Program-made: the position numbers and the translations under genes
The notes under the pieces: generated by a model
Database searches by the model: none
Told to the model about the DNA's origin: nothing
The model's input: only the letters and a program-made list of their open reading frames with translations
Shown: positions 3,628 to 15,195 of the stretch, piece by piece
How the letters are laid out: the number at the start of each line of letters is the position of its first letter
Position numbering within the stretch: position 1 is the first letter of the stretch
From: Bryobacterales bacterium
Lineage (GTDB): Bacteria > Acidobacteriota > Terriglobia > Bryobacterales > Bryobacteraceae
Assembly (NCBI GenBank): GCA_020851655.1
Contig: JADZCI010000057.1
Span: forward strand, 1 to 45,171
Direction: 5' to 3'
DNA length: 45,171 nt

Positions 3628-5178
3628 CTATTTTGCCAGAGTGAAGTTGATCTGTATTTCGGTGATGACTTCGACGGGTTGGCCGTTGAGCAGCGTGGTC
3701 TCCCACTTCCACTGCCTGACGGCTTCGAGGGCGGACTGCACCAGGCGATTATCCACCAGCTTGTTGATTGGTTCCAGGCTGAGCGGATCGCCGTCTTTCG
3801 AGATGATGGTCCGCAGCAGGACGGTGCCTTCAATGCCCTCGGCCTTGGCGTCGACGGGGTACTTGGGGTTGACCCTCTTCAGCATTTTCGCCGCCTGGAC
3901 GTTGCCGCCGATCTTGATGCGAGCCGGCGCGGGCGAGTCCATTGGAATCGGTGTGGGCTTCAGGCTTGAAGCGGGCCGGTCACCGGTCACGGTCAGCGTC
4001 TCCTGAATCTGGCCGATCGCCAGCGTGACCTTGAGGTCCTGCTGTTTGGCGGCCGAGATCTCGACGCCGTCCAGGATCGCGCTGGCGAATCCGCGCGCCT
4101 TGACGGTGACTCTATAGGTTCCTTCAGGCAATGGCGAGAAGGAGAATTCACCGACGTCATTGGTGGTCGTGAACTCGCGGCGGTCCGTGCCGTTGAGAGC
4201 CACGCTGACCGAAGCTTTAGGCACCGCTCCGCCGCTGGCATCCCGGACCACCCCGGTGACTTTGGCGCTGGCGGCGTAAGCCGGAGCGCGAAATGCCGCC
4301 AGAGGCAAGAGAATCACGGCGGCCATTACTGCGATCGAAGTAATCCGTTGCGGTTCGGCGCCGCGGCGGTTACGGTTGGGTTGGAACATCGCTTTGAGGC
4401 GGTTCTCCAGTTCAGAAATACGAGCCATGGGAATCACTCCTTGCGTGACACGGGCTTCCGCGGAAAGCCCGCGCACGATATCTACCAAATGCCCCGCGTA
4501 CGTCGAGGCTTTCTCTCCTTGCACAAGAACTCCGTCATCGCAGGCTTGTTCGCACTCCAGGCGAAGCCGCGATTCCGCCCACCACACGAGCGGATGAAAC
4601 CAATAGACCGCGCACGCCAGGTGAGCGAACGTCTGCGTCAGCAGATCGCGGCGCTGGATGTGCATCGCCTCGTGCGCCAGCACCAGCCGCATGCGTTCCT
4701 CATCCCACCCGGACGCGGACGGGGGCAGCAGAATGACCGGCCGCAGGATGCCGCAGACCATCGGGACGGTTGTGTCCGTGGTGATACGCACATCGTCGCC
4801 GGCAAACGCCCGCGACCGGGCGACGATCTTCCTGGTCCGGATATGGTCCGCCATAGATCTGGCCGTCACCGTCAGCAAACCCAAAGCCCAGACTCCGAGC
4901 AGCACCTGCCAGACCTGCGGCCGGAACGCTCCAGACGCCACAACGTCCAACACGACGCGCTGCGCCGGCGCCGAAGCGGCAAACTTGATAACCGGCTTGG
5001 GGGTCCACTCCGGCAGCGTGAGACTGGCCAGTGGGATGAACAGGGCGCCCGTGAGTCCAAACAGCCAGATCAGGTGCCGGTCGGCGGCGGGCGACCGCTT
5101 CATCAACCACAGCGCACACACCGCCGCGGCGAGAAGCAACACGGTCACTTTGATGATGACGGCTGCTGCAAACGGCAT
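3628..5178 (-). CDS. M56 (BlaR1-like) membrane metallopeptidase with carboxypeptidase-regulatory and TonB domains
   Basis: This 516-residue protein starts with a hydrophobic helix (7-27) followed by further membrane segments (35-55, 90-106). The M56 protease core carries the zinc motif HEAMH at 169-173 and a downstream ECEQACDD segment. Another membrane segment lies near 278-300. The rest is a CarboxypepD_reg-type fold (about 303-395, starting KVTGVVRDASGG) and a TonB C-terminal domain (about 425-516, with NPKYPVDAKAEGIEGTV). BlaR1 proteins sense a signal and cleave a BlaI repressor, and the repressor gene lies just upstream (12-base gap). The penicillin-binding sensor of true BlaR1 is absent and replaced by the TonB-type tail, so the signal is probably not a beta-lactam (inference). 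Confidence 0.85.
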   Translation of the reverse strand: MPFAAAVIIKVTVLLLAAAVCALWLMKRSPAADRHLIWLFGLTGALFIPLASLTLPEWTPKPVIKFAASAPAQRVVLDVVASGAFRPQVWQVLLGVWALGLLTVTARSMADHIRTRKIVARSRAFAGDDVRITTDTTVPMVCGILRPVILLPPSASGWDEERMRLVLAHEAMHIQRRDLLTQTFAHLACAVYWFHPLVWWAESRLRLECEQACDDGVLVQGEKASTYAGHLVDIVRGLSAEARVTQGVIPMARISELENRLKAMFQPNRNRRGAEPQRITSIAVMAAVILLPLAAFRAPAYAASAKVTGVVRDASGGAVPKASVSVALNGTDRREFTTTNDVGEFSFSPLPEGTYRVTVKARGFASAILDGVEISAAKQQDLKVTLAIGQIQETLTVTGDRPASSLKPTPIPMDSPAPARIKIGGNVQAAKMLKRVNPKYPVDAKAEGIEGTVLLRTIISKDGDPLSLEPINKLVDNRLVQSALEAVRQWKWETTLLNGQPVEVITEIQINFTLAK

Positions 5179-5190
5179 TCTGATGACCTC

Positions 5191-5574
5191 CTACTTTCCT
5201 TCTTTCCGCGCGCGTTCAATCAGTTCGCTGAGGCCGTCCAGGTCTTGCTGAGAAAGCTGAGTGGACCGGTCATCGAGTAGCGCCGCCGCCGCCTGGGCCG
5301 GCGACCCGCCAAAAAACGTGTCGACAAGGTGCTGCAATGCCGTGCGGCGCGCTTTCGAAGGCGCCAACGTAGGCAGGTAGACGTACCGCAAATCCTCCGC
5401 CTCATGACGGACATGGCCTTTGTCTTCCAGAGTGCGAAGCTGAGCGCGGACCGCCGAGTAGCTGGGCCGGTCGGTCATGTCCTGGTGGATTTCCGCGGCG
5501 GTGGCCTTTCCGCGCCGGAACAGGATGTCCATAATCTGGCGTTCCCGCCGGCTTAGTGGGGCCGGGCCCTTCAT
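5191..5574 (-). CDS. BlaI/MecI-family transcriptional repressor
   Basis: The 127-residue protein has the winged-helix DNA-binding domain of the BlaI/MecI/CopY family in its first 75 residues (LSRRERQIMDILFRRGKATA, then the recognition region SYSAVRAQLRTLEDKGHV). A helical dimerisation region follows, which in this family is cut by the partner protease. The partner M56 protein is encoded immediately downstream. The gene starts at ATG 5574. Upstream is a promoter that overlaps a perfect palindrome (5597-5612), the arrangement expected for an autoregulated repressor. What the system controls besides itself is not visible here. The sodium/solute symporter gene diverges from the same 160-base region and might share regulation (inference). 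Confidence 0.9.
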   Translation of the reverse strand: MKGPAPLSRRERQIMDILFRRGKATAAEIHQDMTDRPSYSAVRAQLRTLEDKGHVRHEAEDLRYVYLPTLAPSKARRTALQHLVDTFFGGSPAQAAAALLDDRSTQLSQQDLDGLSELIERARKEGK

Positions 5575-8315: not shown

Positions 8316-8942
8316 ATGTGGATTGACGTATCGGTTCCGCTTTATCACGGCATGGTTGGGTGGAAGGGTGATCCGCGTCCCAAGGTGACGCAGAAGCTCT
8401 CCATGGAGAAAGGCGACATCTGTAACCTGACCGTGCTCGACATGTCGGCGCACACCGGCACGCATATGGATGCGCCGCGTCATTTCGTGCGCGATGGAGC
8501 GGGCATGGAGACGCTGCCGCTGGATGCGGTGATGGGTCCGGCGCGCGTGGTGGCAATCCAGGACCCCACAGCGATCCGGCGCGCCGAACTCGAACCAATG
8601 GGAATTCAGCCGGGAGAACGCATCCTGTTCAAGACGAGTAACTCGGCGCGCTGCTGGGCCACGGACGATTTCGTTGAAGACTTTGTCTATATCTCGAACG
8701 AAGCCGCCCAATACCTGGTTTCCCGCGGTGTCCGTACCGTGGGCGTGGACTACCTGTCTATCGGCGGCTACACCAACGACCTGGTGGAAACACACGTTAC
8801 GATCCTGGGCGCCGGCATCTGGGTCATCGAAGGCTTGAACCTATCCGCGATCGAGCCCGGCAATTACGAACTTGTCTGCCTTCCACTGAAGCTGACCGGC
8901 GCGGACGGAGCCCCGGCGAGGGCGGCACTGCGCAAGATATGA
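8316..8942 (+). CDS. Cyclase-family metal-dependent hydrolase (kynurenine formamidase-like)
   Basis: This 208-residue protein belongs to the cyclase family (Cyclase, PF04199), which includes kynurenine formamidase, isatin hydrolase and related amidases or lactonases. The hallmark HTGTHMDAPRH is present at about residues 47-57 and supplies metal-binding histidines and an aspartate. VGVDYLSIGG near 147 is also typical. The ATG lies 3 bases after the DUF1080 stop, and its own stop overlaps the start of the Nudix gene (ATGA), so translation is probably coupled. Kynurenine formamidase acts in the tryptophan-to-NAD route, which would fit the NAD/ADP-ribose theme of the next two genes, but most family members have other substrates, so this is only suggestive. 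Confidence 0.82.
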   Translation: MWIDVSVPLYHGMVGWKGDPRPKVTQKLSMEKGDICNLTVLDMSAHTGTHMDAPRHFVRDGAGMETLPLDAVMGPARVVAIQDPTAIRRAELEPMGIQPGERILFKTSNSARCWATDDFVEDFVYISNEAAQYLVSRGVRTVGVDYLSIGGYTNDLVETHVTILGAGIWVIEGLNLSAIEPGNYELVCLPLKLTGADGAPARAALRKI

Positions 8943-9529
8943 AGCCCGTCATCGAGAAGCACGAACGCCTGCTCGACGACTTCTTCAAAGTCGACCTTTT
9001 CGAGGTCCGGCTGCCGCGGCGCGACGGCACGCTGAGCAGACCGCGAAAGCAACTGGTTCTCGATCGCGGGGACGCGGTTGCAGTTCTGCTGTTTCGCCCC
9101 GAATCGCAAACAGCGGTCCTGATCCGGCAGTTTCGTTTTCCAGCGTCACAGAAGACGGAAGGCTGGTTGCTGGAAGTTGTGGCCGGAATGATCGATGCGG
9201 GAGAAACGCCGGAGGAAGCGGCACGGCGGGAGACATTGGAAGAGTCCGGCTACGAGGTCCGGCAACTCGAGTTCATCAGCGATTTCTTTCCGACGCCCGG
9301 GGGCAGCAACGAACGGATTTTTCTGTACTATGCCGAAGTGGATTCAGCCATGAAAACGGCCGCTGGCGGAGGCATGGCCTGCGAAGGGGAAGATATCGAG
9401 ATCGTGGAGATGAGGCTTGGCGAACTACATGAGAATCTGGCGCGGGGCGCGTTTCGAGACGCCAAGACTTTGATCGCCGTACAATGGCTGCTGGCCAAAC
9501 GGGCGGCCAGCGGAGGAACCGGGGCGTGA
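8939..9529 (+). CDS. Nudix hydrolase, ADP-ribose pyrophosphatase-like
   Basis: The 196-residue protein carries a complete Nudix box (GMIDAG, E, TPEEAAR, RETLEESGY) at about residues 83-105, whose glutamates bind the catalytic metal. The surrounding layout (VLIRQFRFP before the box, PTPGGSNERIFLYYAE after it, then EGEDIEIVEM) is that of NudF/NudK-type enzymes, which split ADP-ribose or GDP-mannose into a nucleoside monophosphate and a sugar phosphate. Its ATG overlaps the stop of the cyclase gene, and its stop overlaps the GTG start of the next gene. This tight coupling to a TIR-like/macro protein favours ADP-ribose as substrate (inference). Confidence 0.88.
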   Translation: MKPVIEKHERLLDDFFKVDLFEVRLPRRDGTLSRPRKQLVLDRGDAVAVLLFRPESQTAVLIRQFRFPASQKTEGWLLEVVAGMIDAGETPEEAARRETLEESGYEVRQLEFISDFFPTPGGSNERIFLYYAEVDSAMKTAAGGGMACEGEDIEIVEMRLGELHENLARGAFRDAKTLIAVQWLLAKRAASGGTGA

Positions 9530-10683
9530 CTAAAAAGTGTTTCGTGATTATGCCCTTCGGGCAGAAGACCGATCCCAGCGGACAGGTCATCGATTTCGAC
9601 GACATCTACGAGTTCATGATTCGAGGCGCGATCGAGGATGACCTGAAGATAGAGTGCATCCGCTGCGACAAGATCAATGAGCCGGGGCTGATCCACCGGG
9701 ACATGATCCTGAACATCTACGACGCTGATGTGGCCATCGTGGACATCACGACGACCAACGCCAACGTCTTCTACGAACTCGGCGTCCGCCATGCCCTGAA
9801 AAAGGGTGTGACTGTGGTCGTCCGCCGCAGCGGCACGCAGATTCCGTTCAACATTCGCGATCTCAGGGTCATCGATTACGACCCCGGCAAGTTCATGAGC
9901 GTTGTCGGCTGCCGCAAGACCATAAGACAGTTTGTGGAAGCGGGTCTCCGGCTGTCGAAAAACGACAGTCTCGTTCACGAGTACCTGGACCTGCGGATCA
10001 CGTCGCCGCGAGAGCCGATCGCGGAAACCTCCGCCCATTTATTCAGCATCAAAGGCAGCCCGTCCAAAGCTGTCGGCCTGATCACCGGCGACATTCAGAA
10101 CGTCAACATTGCCGACATCTGGGTGAACTCGGAAAACACGAACATGCAGATGGCCCGCTTCTACGATGGTTCCGTTTCGGGTGTCATCCGCTACATGGGC
10201 GCCACAAAGGACGACAAGGGCAACGTCGTGGACGACGTGATTTCGAATGAACTTCAGAGGGTGATGGGCAAGGACCGGTATGTGGATCCCGGAACGGTTA
10301 TTCCCACCGGCGCCGGGGAGTTGGTCAAGTCCAATGGCGTCAAACGCGTCTTTCACGCCGCCGCCGTCCAGGGAGTCATAGGGGAGGGCTATTTTCCGGT
10401 CAAGAACTTTCAATCCTGCGTGCGCCGGGCCATGGAACTCGTGGACATGCCCGACAAGAAGAACCAGAACTGCTCTTCGCTCCTGTTCCCGCTGTTCGGA
10501 ACCGGGACCGGCAAGGGCGATGTGGAGGGCGCTTTCCGGAAGATGCTGGAAACCGCGCTGGGCTATTTCAGGGCCAAGAAGAACACGCAGATCGACCGGG
10601 TTTACTTCCTCAACTATTCGCAAGCGGAGTTCAGAACCTGCATGGGCATCATGGAGAACTCCGAGAACCTGACCAAACTATAG
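9526..10683 (+). CDS. Two-domain protein: deoxyribosyltransferase/TIR-like domain plus macro domain
   Basis: The start is GTG 9526, which overlaps the Nudix stop (GTGA) and has GGAGG at 9512-9516 with 9-base spacing. This gives 385 residues. Residues 4-120 form a Rossmann-like domain of the nucleoside 2-deoxyribosyltransferase/TIR-like type: it opens with CFVIMPFG, has DADVAIVDITTTNANVFYEL, and contains a likely catalytic glutamate E84. Such domains cleave N-glycosidic bonds in nucleosides, nucleotides or NAD. Residues about 183-370 resemble a macro domain (TGDI, VNSENTNM, GTVIPTGAGELV, FHAAA, FPLFGTGTGKGD), which binds or processes ADP-ribose. The canonical glycine-rich GGGV loop is replaced by FYDGSVSGVIRY. 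There are no membrane segments. Together with the Nudix enzyme it may handle ADP-ribose or act in a defence or stress response (inference). Confidence 0.75.
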   Translation: MTKKCFVIMPFGQKTDPSGQVIDFDDIYEFMIRGAIEDDLKIECIRCDKINEPGLIHRDMILNIYDADVAIVDITTTNANVFYELGVRHALKKGVTVVVRRSGTQIPFNIRDLRVIDYDPGKFMSVVGCRKTIRQFVEAGLRLSKNDSLVHEYLDLRITSPREPIAETSAHLFSIKGSPSKAVGLITGDIQNVNIADIWVNSENTNMQMARFYDGSVSGVIRYMGATKDDKGNVVDDVISNELQRVMGKDRYVDPGTVIPTGAGELVKSNGVKRVFHAAAVQGVIGEGYFPVKNFQSCVRRAMELVDMPDKKNQNCSSLLFPLFGTGTGKGDVEGAFRKMLETALGYFRAKKNTQIDRVYFLNYSQAEFRTCMGIMENSENLTKL

Positions 10684-10689
10684 GAGCGC

Positions 10690-11649
10690 CTACGCGGGAT
10701 CGCCGTCGCGGTGCGCCGGTTGCATGGCGCTGCCTTCCTTCTTCTTGTAAGTCTCCACCTTCGACCCCGTCGGCCCTTGCTTGGTGCGATGCAGCAGGAC
10801 GGTCATCTCCTGCCTGGTCATTTTCTTGAAGGTCTTTACCACCCCGGTGTTCTCCTCGAGCTGGGCGGTCGATTCGACGCCGGATACGACGGTATCAATG
10901 TCCTGGCTGAGTGAGAACCTGAGACACTCCTCGATGCGAGCCACCTGGTTTTTTCCGATGCCTCCCATGGCGTTCGACTTCATCGCCAGCACGCCGAGTC
11001 CTTTCTTGCGCGCCACCGGCAGCACGTTTTCGATAAAGCTCAGGTAGTGAGGGTCGACGCAATTGACCGGGAACTGAATGGTTTCCCAAACGTCGGTGGC
11101 GGCCAACAGGCGTAAATGAATCGAAGGATCCCGGTGTCCTGTAAAGCCGATGTGCCGCACCTTGCCTTGCTGCTTTGCCAGCACGAAGGCTTCGAGCGAA
11201 CCACCTGGCCCGAGGATCTGATCCACCTCTTTGTGCTCGCTCACCTGGTGGCATTGCCACAGGTCCAGATAGTCGGTCTTCATCAGCTTCAACGACTCTT
11301 CCAGTTCCGCCATCGCTTCGGCCTTGCTGTACTTTTCGGCTTTGGTCATCAACAGCACTTTTTGCCGCCGGCCTTCGCCGAACGCCTTGCCGTAGATTTC
11401 CTCGCTCTTTCCGTTGTGATAGATCCGGGCGTTGTCGAAGAAGTTGACGCCCAAGTCCATGGCGCGGTGAATGATTCGAATGGCGTTGTCTTCGCCTTGG
11501 ACGGCCATGTGGTAGCCGCCCAGGGTGAATCGTGACACCTTGAGTCCACTTTTGCCCAAAGTCGTCATGGGCATGGGCGCGCCGGCGGCAAGCCTTTCGG
11601 ACAGTCCGGCCGTCGCCGCGGATGCTTGGAGAAATGCTCGGCGGTTCAT
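10690..11649 (-). CDS. Tat-exported aldo/keto reductase
   Basis: The 319-residue protein begins MNRRAFLQASAATAG, a twin-arginine-type signal, so it is probably exported folded with its cofactor. The rest is an aldo/keto reductase TIM barrel with the catalytic tetrad visible: D72 in VNFFDNA, Y77 in ARIYHNG, K103 in LLMTKAEK and H134 in LWQCHQV. Aldo/keto reductases reduce carbonyls with NADPH. Exported members of this kind are common in Acidobacteria and Planctomycetes and mostly of unknown substrate. It is convergent with the macro-domain gene (6 bases apart) and divergent from the HtrA gene with only 25 bases between start codons, so the two promoters must overlap each other's coding starts. 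Confidence 0.88.
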   Translation of the reverse strand: MNRRAFLQASAATAGLSERLAAGAPMPMTTLGKSGLKVSRFTLGGYHMAVQGEDNAIRIIHRAMDLGVNFFDNARIYHNGKSEEIYGKAFGEGRRQKVLLMTKAEKYSKAEAMAELEESLKLMKTDYLDLWQCHQVSEHKEVDQILGPGGSLEAFVLAKQQGKVRHIGFTGHRDPSIHLRLLAATDVWETIQFPVNCVDPHYLSFIENVLPVARKKGLGVLAMKSNAMGGIGKNQVARIEECLRFSLSQDIDTVVSGVESTAQLEENTGVVKTFKKMTRQEMTVLLHRTKQGPTGSKVETYKKKEGSAMQPAHRDGDPA

Positions 11650-13085: not shown

Positions 13086-13706
13086 TCAGAAGTCGATGTT
13101 GGTCAGAATCTCCGACGGCTTCAGCCCGAAGGCGTGAGCGATGGCCAGCAGGCTTTCCATGCTTGGCAGGTTGGCGCCGCGCTCAATCGAACTGATCTGG
13201 GAAACGCTCAGCTTTGAGTAGAACGCCAAGTCCTTCAACGACCAGTCCCGCTCGGCGCGCAGCAGCCGGATTTTGTGCCCCAAGCGCTCGCGAAGTTTGT
13301 CCTGTTGTGTGCGTCCCAATCCAAACTGCTCGGCCGCGTTGGCCAAGGTCTGCCGGAGTTGCGCGAGAGAAAACGGCTTGGCGAGATAATCGAAGACCTT
13401 GAGTTTGAAGGTGGCGCGCATGTCCTCGAGCGACGGGTAACCGGTGACGACAATCACGCAGAGGCCGGGCCAGCGTGAAAAGGCTTGCTCCAGGACTCTG
13501 TCTCCACGCGTTTCGCCCATCTTCATGTCAAGCAGAATCACGTCAGGGCGCTGCTGTTCCTCGGCATCGAACAAGGCCGCCGGTTCCTTGAACGTGCGCA
13601 CCGCGTAGAGTCCCTCATCACGAAGAAAGTCCTCCATGTAGGTGAGGAAATCCATGTCGTCATCCAACACGGCGATGTCAATGAGTCCAGGGAGCGGTGC
13701 GTCCAT
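13086..13706 (-). CDS. Response regulator with receiver and XRE-type HTH domains
   Basis: The 206-residue protein has a receiver domain (about 9-125) with the acidic pocket LDDD (14-17), the phosphorylation site D60 in ILLDMKMG, T88 and K110 (LAKPF). The C-terminal part (about 137-200) is a Cro/CI-type helix-turn-helix: LGHKIRLLRAERDWSLKDLA, SVSQISSIERG, then the family's AHAFGLKPSEI ending. Response regulators normally end in OmpR, NarL or NtrC-type domains, so a receiver joined to an XRE domain is unusual. It lies one base downstream of the kinase gene and is surely its partner. The pair diverges from the ACIII/caa3 respiratory operon, which it may control (inference). Confidence 0.88.
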   Translation of the reverse strand: MDAPLPGLIDIAVLDDDMDFLTYMEDFLRDEGLYAVRTFKEPAALFDAEEQQRPDVILLDMKMGETRGDRVLEQAFSRWPGLCVIVVTGYPSLEDMRATFKLKVFDYLAKPFSLAQLRQTLANAAEQFGLGRTQQDKLRERLGHKIRLLRAERDWSLKDLAFYSKLSVSQISSIERGANLPSMESLLAIAHAFGLKPSEILTNIDF

Positions 13707-13707
13707 A

Positions 13708-15195
13708 TCAGGTAGTCACAGGGGTAACGGCGGCGGGCAACAGGATTTCGAGCTTCGCTCCCCCGCCGGAGCGATTGGTTGCGGTGATTGAGCCGCCATG
13801 TTGCGTAACGATGCCTTCGGCGACGGTAAGACCAAGACCCGTGCCATGGGAATCAAGCCGGGTTGTGACAAAGGCTTCGAAGACTTCGGGCAGGATTTCG
13901 TCGGAGATGCCGGGGCCGTTGTCTTCCACAGTGATGGCGACCGCCGGCCGGGAGTCCATCCGGGTGGCGCGCGCCTGAACCGTGATCCGGCCATTCCGGC
14001 ATGGCGCCGCTTGAAGGGAATTGCGCAGCAGATTGACAAACACCTGCGCCAGCCGGTCGCTGTTGCCCACCACCGCGCAGCCTTCGGGCACGCGGTTTTC
14101 AAATGCCACATCCGGCGATTTTTCGTCGATGGCCACGAACCCCCAGGCCTCGTCAACGAGGGGTTTCAACTCCACCGGCTCCATGCTCTGGCGGCGGGCA
14201 CGGGCAAAATCCAACAGCGCTTCGCTGATCTTTCTTAGCCGCAGGGTCACGCGGATCATGCGCTGCAGGCGGCTTTGCGTGGCGGGGGAGTCGACGGTCT
14301 CCAGCAACTTTTCAATGGACCCGTGCAACACGGCCAGCGGAGTGTTCATCTCATGCGCCACGCTCGCGCTAAGCAATCCGAGGCTCACCAGGCGGTCCTG
14401 CGATTCCAGGTTTCTCTTGGCGTCTTCCAGACGCTGGAGTGTCTGCGCCAGGTCCTCTTCTCTCCGCCGCAGCTCGCGGATCATTTCGTTTTGAGAGCGC
14501 ATGATCTTGCCGATTTCATCGCCGGGAATGAAGCTCTCGTCAATGATCTCGCCTTTGAGGTCGCCACGAAGCGAGGCTTCCTCGGCCGCCAACAGCAGCC
14601 GCAGTGGTTGGTACACGTACTTGGGCAGGATCATCAGTTCGAGCATGAGCACCGCCAGTACGTAGACAAGGCCCAAGACAGCGAACACAAGAATCTTAAT
14701 TGATTCGAGCACCTCGTCATAGAAGGATAGGGGGAGACGCAGCCGGTAGAAAGGACCGGTCGCCGGCTGCCACCGGTACAGAAAATCGCTCTCCGCTTCG
14801 CGGCGCCACACCTGCCCTGGGTGCTCATAAAGCCATTCACGCGCGGCTTCCGGAATTTGCAGCTCGGTCGCCGAGCCATGCCGCAAGTCATACTCGGCCA
14901 GTTCTTGAGAGACGTCCTGCTGGCCTTGCGCTTGAAAGGTCCGCACGATGAGCGAGACTTCACGGCTGCGAGCCATGGCGAGCCGCTTCTCCACCAGCGG
15001 AATGAGGGAAAAATAAACGGCGCAAGTGAGCACGATGAAAAAGAGGTTGTGCAGCACCATGAATTTGGGCCACACGCGCAGGTCGCCGAACCGGCGGCTG
15101 ATTCCGCGCAGGGGCCGGAGTTCGGACGAGCGCGAGGGCCGCCTCGACGCCGCGCCAAACACTCCACTGCCCCATTCGGAATTATTGTCAAACAA
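13708..15195 (-). CDS. Membrane sensor histidine kinase
   Basis: This protein of about 495 residues has two membrane helices (about 44-67 and 168-191) flanking a sensor loop of about 100 residues outside the cytoplasm. A HAMP-like region follows (about 192-245), then a coiled coil, the HisKA dimerisation domain with phospho-acceptor H281 (SVAHEMNTPL) and an HATPase domain (NLLRNSLQAA, VEDNGPGIS, GTGLGLTVAEGI). The start used is TTG 15195, supported by AGGGG at 15205-15209 with about 9-base spacing. A later start at the methionine near residue 46 would remove the cytoplasmic N-terminus. It phosphorylates the receiver-XRE protein encoded next. Its stimulus is unknown. Its location suggests a respiratory or redox cue (inference). 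Confidence 0.87.
   Translation of the reverse strand: MFDNNSEWGSGVFGAASRRPSRSSELRPLRGISRRFGDLRVWPKFMVLHNLFFIVLTCAVYFSLIPLVEKRLAMARSREVSLIVRTFQAQGQQDVSQELAEYDLRHGSATELQIPEAAREWLYEHPGQVWRREAESDFLYRWQPATGPFYRLRLPLSFYDEVLESIKILVFAVLGLVYVLAVLMLELMILPKYVYQPLRLLLAAEEASLRGDLKGEIIDESFIPGDEIGKIMRSQNEMIRELRRREEDLAQTLQRLEDAKRNLESQDRLVSLGLLSASVAHEMNTPLAVLHGSIEKLLETVDSPATQSRLQRMIRVTLRLRKISEALLDFARARRQSMEPVELKPLVDEAWGFVAIDEKSPDVAFENRVPEGCAVVGNSDRLAQVFVNLLRNSLQAAPCRNGRITVQARATRMDSRPAVAITVEDNGPGISDEILPEVFEAFVTTRLDSHGTGLGLTVAEGIVTQHGGSITATNRSGGGAKLEILLPAAVTPVTT

Follow-up and report, generated by a model that had tools for sequence, protein, structure and literature searches.

The window, which here means the whole 45,171-bp stretch of Bryobacterales DNA that was analysed, contains a gene pair that, judged from gene order, is a two-gene cassette mobile between unrelated bacteria and archaea. 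The first gene encodes an AdpP-type Nudix hydrolase, and the second a protein joining TIR-like and macro domains. The reading we favour, to which we give about an even chance, is that the pair forms a NADase controlled by an ADP-ribose-type signal, with the macro domain as its sensor and the Nudix enzyme as its eraser.

The Nudix and TIR-like/macro gene pair

The features of the pair on the window are as follows.
8939–9529, plus strand: AdpP-type Nudix hydrolase gene (ADP-ribose diphosphatase family, TIGR00052), first of the pair, 196 aa
9185–9253, plus strand: intact Nudix box, G83-x5-E89-x7-R97-E98-x2-E101-E102-x-G104, invariant in the nine linked Nudix proteins
9512–9516, plus strand: Shine–Dalgarno-like GGAGG for the TIR-like/macro gene, 9 nt 5' of its GTG, read directly
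9526–10683, plus strand: TIR-like/macro gene, second of the pair, GTG start, 385 aa
8943–10689, plus strand: inserted cassette, from the end of the cyclase gene to the end of the aldo-keto reductase gene, whose flanks occur without the pair in relatives

The original prediction had described a Nudix gene and a 385-residue gene joined by a GTGA overlap, with a Shine–Dalgarno sequence for the second. Direct reading of the sequence bore this out: the genes share four bases, GTGA, the Nudix stop codon TGA (9527–9529) lies inside them, and GGAGG precedes the second start.

The two genes are the sole filling of the gap between a cyclase gene ending at 8942 and an aldo-keto reductase gene on the minus strand ending at 10690. 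In two relatives from the same family as the window's genome (L096, which is G011, and L102, which is G026), the genes for DUF1080, the cyclase and the aldo-keto reductase are neighbours and the pair is missing. Both genes were therefore gained or lost together, as one unit, and the upstream sugar and cyclase genes are not part of the system. The cyclase, arylformamidase-like in profile search at 152 bits, under the cut-off of 223, had been considered as a member through tryptophan–NAD synthesis; this was dropped, since it stays with the DUF1080 and aldo-keto reductase genes where the pair is absent. The neighbours of the pair in the window are metabolic genes, and there is no defence island there.

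Elsewhere in the window, at 3628–5574 (minus strand), a BlaI-like repressor lies next to an M56 BlaR1-type peptidase that also contains carboxypeptidase-regulatory and TonB C-terminal domains. The gene at 13086–13706 (minus strand) reads as a response-regulator receiver with a C-terminal helix-turn-helix and adjoins a histidine-kinase-like gene (13708–15195).

The assignment of the Nudix protein to the ADP-ribose type was upheld by TIGR00052 (YffH/AdpP; E 8.2e-41, 139.7 bits against a curated cut-off of 79.55), with further matches to Pfam NUDIX (8.7e-20) and to a solved ADP-ribose pyrophosphatase (2.6e-30). It is thus a member of the AdpP/NudF family with an intact Nudix box. That AdpP enzymes are also ordinary housekeeping enzymes is a point against the favoured reading. 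The pair-linked copies group apart from their same-genome paralogues, the window copy being placed less firmly.

Domains and active-site residues of the fused protein

The second protein has the following parts.
9526–9954, plus strand: TIR/DNPH1-like domain (DrHyd-TIR superfamily), residues 1–143, from the model and structure comparison
9541–9543, plus strand: codon of Phe6, opposite DNPH1 Tyr24, Rcl Tyr13 and MilB residue 17 by structural range offsets
9775–9777, plus strand: codon of Glu84, the predicted catalytic glutamate (YELG), aligned by profile with the glutamate of the Rcl YELG
10021–10674, plus strand: C-terminal macro domain, residues 166–383, from structure comparison
10120–10155, plus strand: family-specific motif W199-V-N-x-E-N-T-N-M-Q-M-A210, in place of the macro catalytic/glycine-rich loop

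AlphaFold models had a mean pLDDT of 84.4 for the whole 385-aa protein and 88.9 for the N-terminal domain alone. In structure comparison the N-terminal model matched DNPH1 (Z 15.0, rmsd 2.2, 124 residues), the TIR domains of SfSTING (Z 14.3), SPARTA (Z 13.7) and SARM1 (Z 12.9), and MilB (Z 13.7). By profile, the PADLOC TIR effector family matched this domain at 8.6e-8, its best solved relative was Rcl/DNPH1 (9.2e-8), and the Pfam nucleoside deoxyribosyltransferase family appeared only below threshold. As modelled, the fold lies between the nucleotide N-glycosidases and the TIR NADases. Matches of the whole protein to TRPV6 in a PDB search appear to be chance hits, and neither profile nor fold comparison reproduced them.

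Glu84, whose lack of conservation had been named as part of a refuting condition, does not vary among the 17 TIR-bearing members of the family alignment or, together with R46, N78, N80 and G86, among 23 homologous domains. The domain thus has the TIR fold (Z 14.3 to SfSTING, 12.9 to SARM1) with a predicted catalytic glutamate (E84) that is expected of a TIR NADase. The active-site tyrosine that contacts the glutamate in the deoxynucleotide enzymes (DNPH1/NDT) is replaced by Phe6, an equivalence with DNPH1 Tyr24 derived from the aligned-range offsets of a predicted model; the residue is phenylalanine in 17/17 TIR-bearing members. MilB, which cleaves CMP, has Phe17. NADase TIRs usually have Phe or Ala at the position of the DNPH1 tyrosine, and Tyr there marks deoxynucleotide-specific enzymes and some ThsB proteins (PMC11204291). 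Because Phe and not Tyr occupies this position, the model points to a ribose substrate such as NAD+.

The N-terminal domain shares its fold with the DNPH1/Rcl and MilB N-glycosidases, and with Rcl/DNPH1 the YELG glutamate as well. That these are the closest solved relatives of the N-terminal domain (DNPH1 at 9.2e-8 and Z 15, MilB at Z 13.7) speaks for a nucleotide sanitation enzyme of this kind that has no link to immunity and in which the macro domain is an accessory. We regard this as very improbable: Phe6 stands where DNPH1 has tyrosine, the scores of defence-system TIR NADases are almost as good (Z 14.3 and 13.7), and the macro fusion, which sets the protein apart from these enzymes, fits ADP-ribose chemistry better than dNMPs, as does linkage to an ADP-ribose diphosphatase.

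The macro domain matched Pfam PF01661 at 22.6 bits, just above the cut-off of 22. Its model matched OiMacroD with ADP-ribose (5l9k; Z 21.2, rmsd 2.3 over 180 residues), macroH2A1.1 (Z 21.0) and PARP14 (Z about 21). The TIR-like/macro fusion proposed earlier was thus recovered by profile search (PADLOC 8.6e-8, PF01661 22.6 bits) and by the models (Z 15.0 and 21). The WVNxENTNMQMA motif is invariant, the x position excepted, in 19 of 19 family members; within it N204 is invariant, and TNMQMA stands where hydrolytic macro domains have their glycine-rich loop. The position of the MacroD catalytic aspartate, residue 214, is D in 12 members, E in six and S in one. Given the replaced loop and the D/E/S variation at the catalytic position, sensing appears a more likely role than hydrolysis; the acidic residue in 18/19 members may still allow hydrolase activity.

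These replacements also bear on a toxin–antitoxin arrangement, in which the TIR-like domain would ADP-ribosylate a target or drain NAD, the macro domain would reverse or restrain it in cis, and the Nudix enzyme would be a soluble antidote. A mobile two-gene cassette with translational overlap suits such an arrangement, and macro domains do serve as antitoxins elsewhere, for example in DarTG. We nevertheless find it quite unlikely, as the glycine-rich loop has become an invariant TNMQMA and the catalytic Asp position may be D, E or S, half of the members have no Nudix gene, and a Nudix enzyme could not restore NAD.

Distribution, linkage and exchange of domains in the family

When about 85,000 species genomes were scanned, 19 relatives came to light, in Cyanobacteriota, Pseudomonadota, Chloroflexota, Bacteroidota, Actinomycetota, Planctomycetota and Myxococcota, and in the archaeon Methanothrix. 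Most have the full-length TIR-like plus macro layout, with 41–48% identity, and each of the 19 genomes holds a single copy of the family. The macro family is rare and patchily distributed: in samples each centred on a known positive genome, it occurred in 1/297 Acidobacteriota (the window's own), 1/292 cyanobacteria, 2/201 genomes from the order Anaerolineales, 1/197 from the phylum of Methanothrix and 1/296 from the phylum of Lewinella, with two close and one distant among 399 Burkholderiales. The distant macro-family relative L064:1-1086 (3.5e-31) differs in its N-terminal region, which the end of the contig truncates.

A scan of viral contigs with the macro alignment gave no match, and searches of viral contigs, phage records and plasmids did not turn up the full-length TIR-like/macro gene. 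In phage and plasmid records the N-terminal domain alone matched, within other architectures such as TRAFs-binding/TPR proteins and hypothetical temperate-phage proteins. Temperate phages of Staphylococcus, Streptococcus and Enterococcus encode hypothetical proteins with the same N-terminal MPFG TIR-like domain (records H41–H77); their genes are candidates for superinfection defence.

The expectation that the Nudix gene would travel with the macro gene held in many relatives: besides the window, the gene immediately upstream, in the same orientation, encodes an AdpP-type Nudix enzyme in 9/19 (L026, L027, L028, L030, L031, L036, L039, L042 and L043), including Burkholderiales, Anaerolineales, Methanothrix archaea, cyanobacteria and Lewinella. 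With near relatives counted once, this amounts to about six lineages besides the window. Unlinked AdpP genes number roughly one or two per genome, from which we estimate the chance of such linkage at about one in several thousand per locus. Conserved as it is across two domains of life, the pairing is not due to chance. In a tree with unlinked AdpP paralogues of the same genomes, in which the window's own Nudix was not firmly placed, the linked proteins needed two changes, against 8.4 when shuffled (0/500 as low). On the macro tree, which is poorly resolved, the Nudix-linked members need four changes. The pairing may thus reflect one ancestral event followed by losses, or repeated pairing. Half of the family is without a linked Nudix gene, so the enzyme is not obligatory.

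In L042 (Tildeniella) and L043 (Lewinella), the Nudix gene accompanies the same macro domain, but the N-terminal half, devoid of the TIR-like residues, consists of hydrophobic segments; as read from sequence, these segments are apparently membrane-spanning. L039 (Stenomitos) and L042 have flanking genes in common, at 62–93% identity, which indicates the same chromosomal place, occupied by the TIR-like version in one cyanobacterium and the membrane version in the other. L033 and L035 have additional TPR repeats in front, as shown for L033. Nudix plus macro therefore looks like a constant core with the N-terminal domain as an exchangeable effector; the comparison suggests that what stays the same is the macro domain, frequently accompanied by Nudix, and what varies is the effector. 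In L043, a 192-aa protein encoded just before the Nudix and TM-macro genes (L043:4463-5041) looks possibly TIR-like by eye and had no family match in profile searches.

Other partner genes were found beside the family. In both Parahaliea, a gene overlapping the end of the TIR-like/macro gene stands in place of Nudix (L041:7182-7910, L040:7104-7901); its product matches Pfam Isochorismatase and, from its sequence, looks like a nicotinamidase that bears a lipoprotein signal. A gene for a 729-aa SIR2-domain protein resembling defence sirtuins overlaps the end of the TIR-like/macro gene at L029:7275-9464. Radical SAM and TIR-FGE (sulfatase-modifying) genes, in that order, adjoin the TIR-like/macro gene at L026:3004-5067, L027:2861-5016 and L034:2089-4157, possibly as an upstream sensor or signal module. 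Defence-type neighbours comprise SIR2 (L029), TIR-FGE (L026, L027, L034) and a TIR protein (L041), with none in the window. Cleavage of NAD yields nicotinamide and ADP-ribose, and each partner enzyme fits one or other of these products.

The same partners would suit linear disposal, in which the TIR-like domain would cleave NAD or a nucleotide and the macro domain would take up or process the ADP-ribose, to be degraded by the Nudix enzyme; this would serve NAD turnover or clean-up under stress and not signalling. The three activities agree with the families, and Nudix and nicotinamidase-like partners would handle the two cleavage products; even so, Nudix and macro are kept without the TIR-like domain in L042 and L043, and the rare, mobile distribution is unlike housekeeping metabolism, so we consider it unlikely. 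The original proposal of an NAD or ADP-ribose system accordingly stands in its domains and their coupling, and fails as a simple cut–bind–destroy chain for the whole family, because Nudix and macro persist where the TIR-like domain has been swapped; the macro domain resembles rather a sensor within an effector protein.

Known defence systems and a proposed mechanism

CBASS and Thoeris effectors are built in a similar way, from a constant sensor and an exchangeable effector. In Thoeris with a TM-macro ThsA, a TIR enzyme makes an ADPR-type signal that the macro domain senses, and effector exchange on a constant sensor has its parallel there (PMC11204291). The pair would share with it a macro sensor of an ADPR-type signal, has TM-macro forms of its own in L042 and L043, and has a replaceable output. 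It differs in that the TIR-like domain is fused to the macro domain in most members and the partner is a Nudix gene and not ThsB. Membership of Thoeris was rejected: PF20016 (ThsA macro) had no match in the window's own genome, profile–profile comparison of the macro domain with ThsA_Macro was not significant (hhalign probability 6.5%; two ThsA proteins compared), and no ThsB TIR gene lies beside the pair in the window, where the flanks are the cyclase and aldo-keto reductase. ThsA was not among the structure-comparison matches listed for the macro model, which excludes nothing. The pair is probably related to Thoeris in style, not in ancestry.

The TIR-STING effector of CBASS (SfSTING; PDB 7un8) likewise fuses a TIR NADase to a nucleotide-sensing domain, and its fold matches at Z 14.3; here the sensor is a macro domain rather than STING, and no cyclic-nucleotide synthase gene is among the annotated neighbours of the pair. 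Swarozyc, a DUF4062 TIR-like NADase defence system, is also distantly nucleoside deoxyribosyltransferase-like, with one conserved catalytic Glu and a patchy distribution (PMC13174449). Its auxiliary domain is a portal-binding HTH/winged fold where the window protein has macro, and DUF4062 had no Pfam match to the window protein at E up to 1.

In surveys by Aravind and colleagues, TIR, DrHyd, macro and Nudix are parts of NAD/ADPR conflict systems; the portions of those surveys consulted contain no description of a fused TIR-like/macro protein with this Nudix partner (PMC9503650, PMC7159879). In the literature searched, which left most subscription journals outside, no description of the set was found.

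Sequence and structure comparison supplied the domains, the conserved active-site residues, the coupling, the co-transfer and the domain swap; from these we infer NADase activity, the identity of the ligand, the sensor and off-switch roles, and defence, in the favoured scheme of a signal-controlled NADase. The TIR-like domain, with E84 and Phe6, would be an N-glycosidase whose substrate is a ribose nucleotide, NAD+ being the likeliest, and cleavage would yield nicotinamide and an ADP-ribose-type product. Binding of an ADP-ribose-type ligand by the fused macro domain would assemble or switch on the N-terminal effector, whose output would be NAD depletion in the window protein and membrane damage in the transmembrane variants. 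By hydrolysing the ligand's diphosphate, the Nudix enzyme would keep the switch off below a threshold and then reset it. The ligand could come from another TIR enzyme in the cell, or be the domain's own product acting as feed-forward. Five TIR_2 matches on other contigs of the same genome make a signal in trans possible; feed-forward would be open to the TIR-like versions and not to the membrane versions, which have no NADase domain. The likely purpose would be abortive infection, and from the architecture, mobility and rarity the role is probably defence against phage.

More tentatively, and short of an even chance, the family may represent a distinct class of immune switch in bacteria and archaea, operated by an ADP-ribose signal: a new macro sensor family (WVNxENTNMQMA) with exchangeable effectors (TIR-like, TPR plus TIR-like, transmembrane) and a dedicated Nudix eraser, needing no separate signal-producing gene. 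The natural swap of TIR-like and apparently transmembrane domains on one macro sensor suggests which part senses and which is the weapon. If the reading is right, single mutations in this small system of two genes could test separately how the signal is produced, sensed and erased, and the world of Thoeris and CBASS would gain an ADP-ribose signalling defence that is self-contained and brings its own off-switch.
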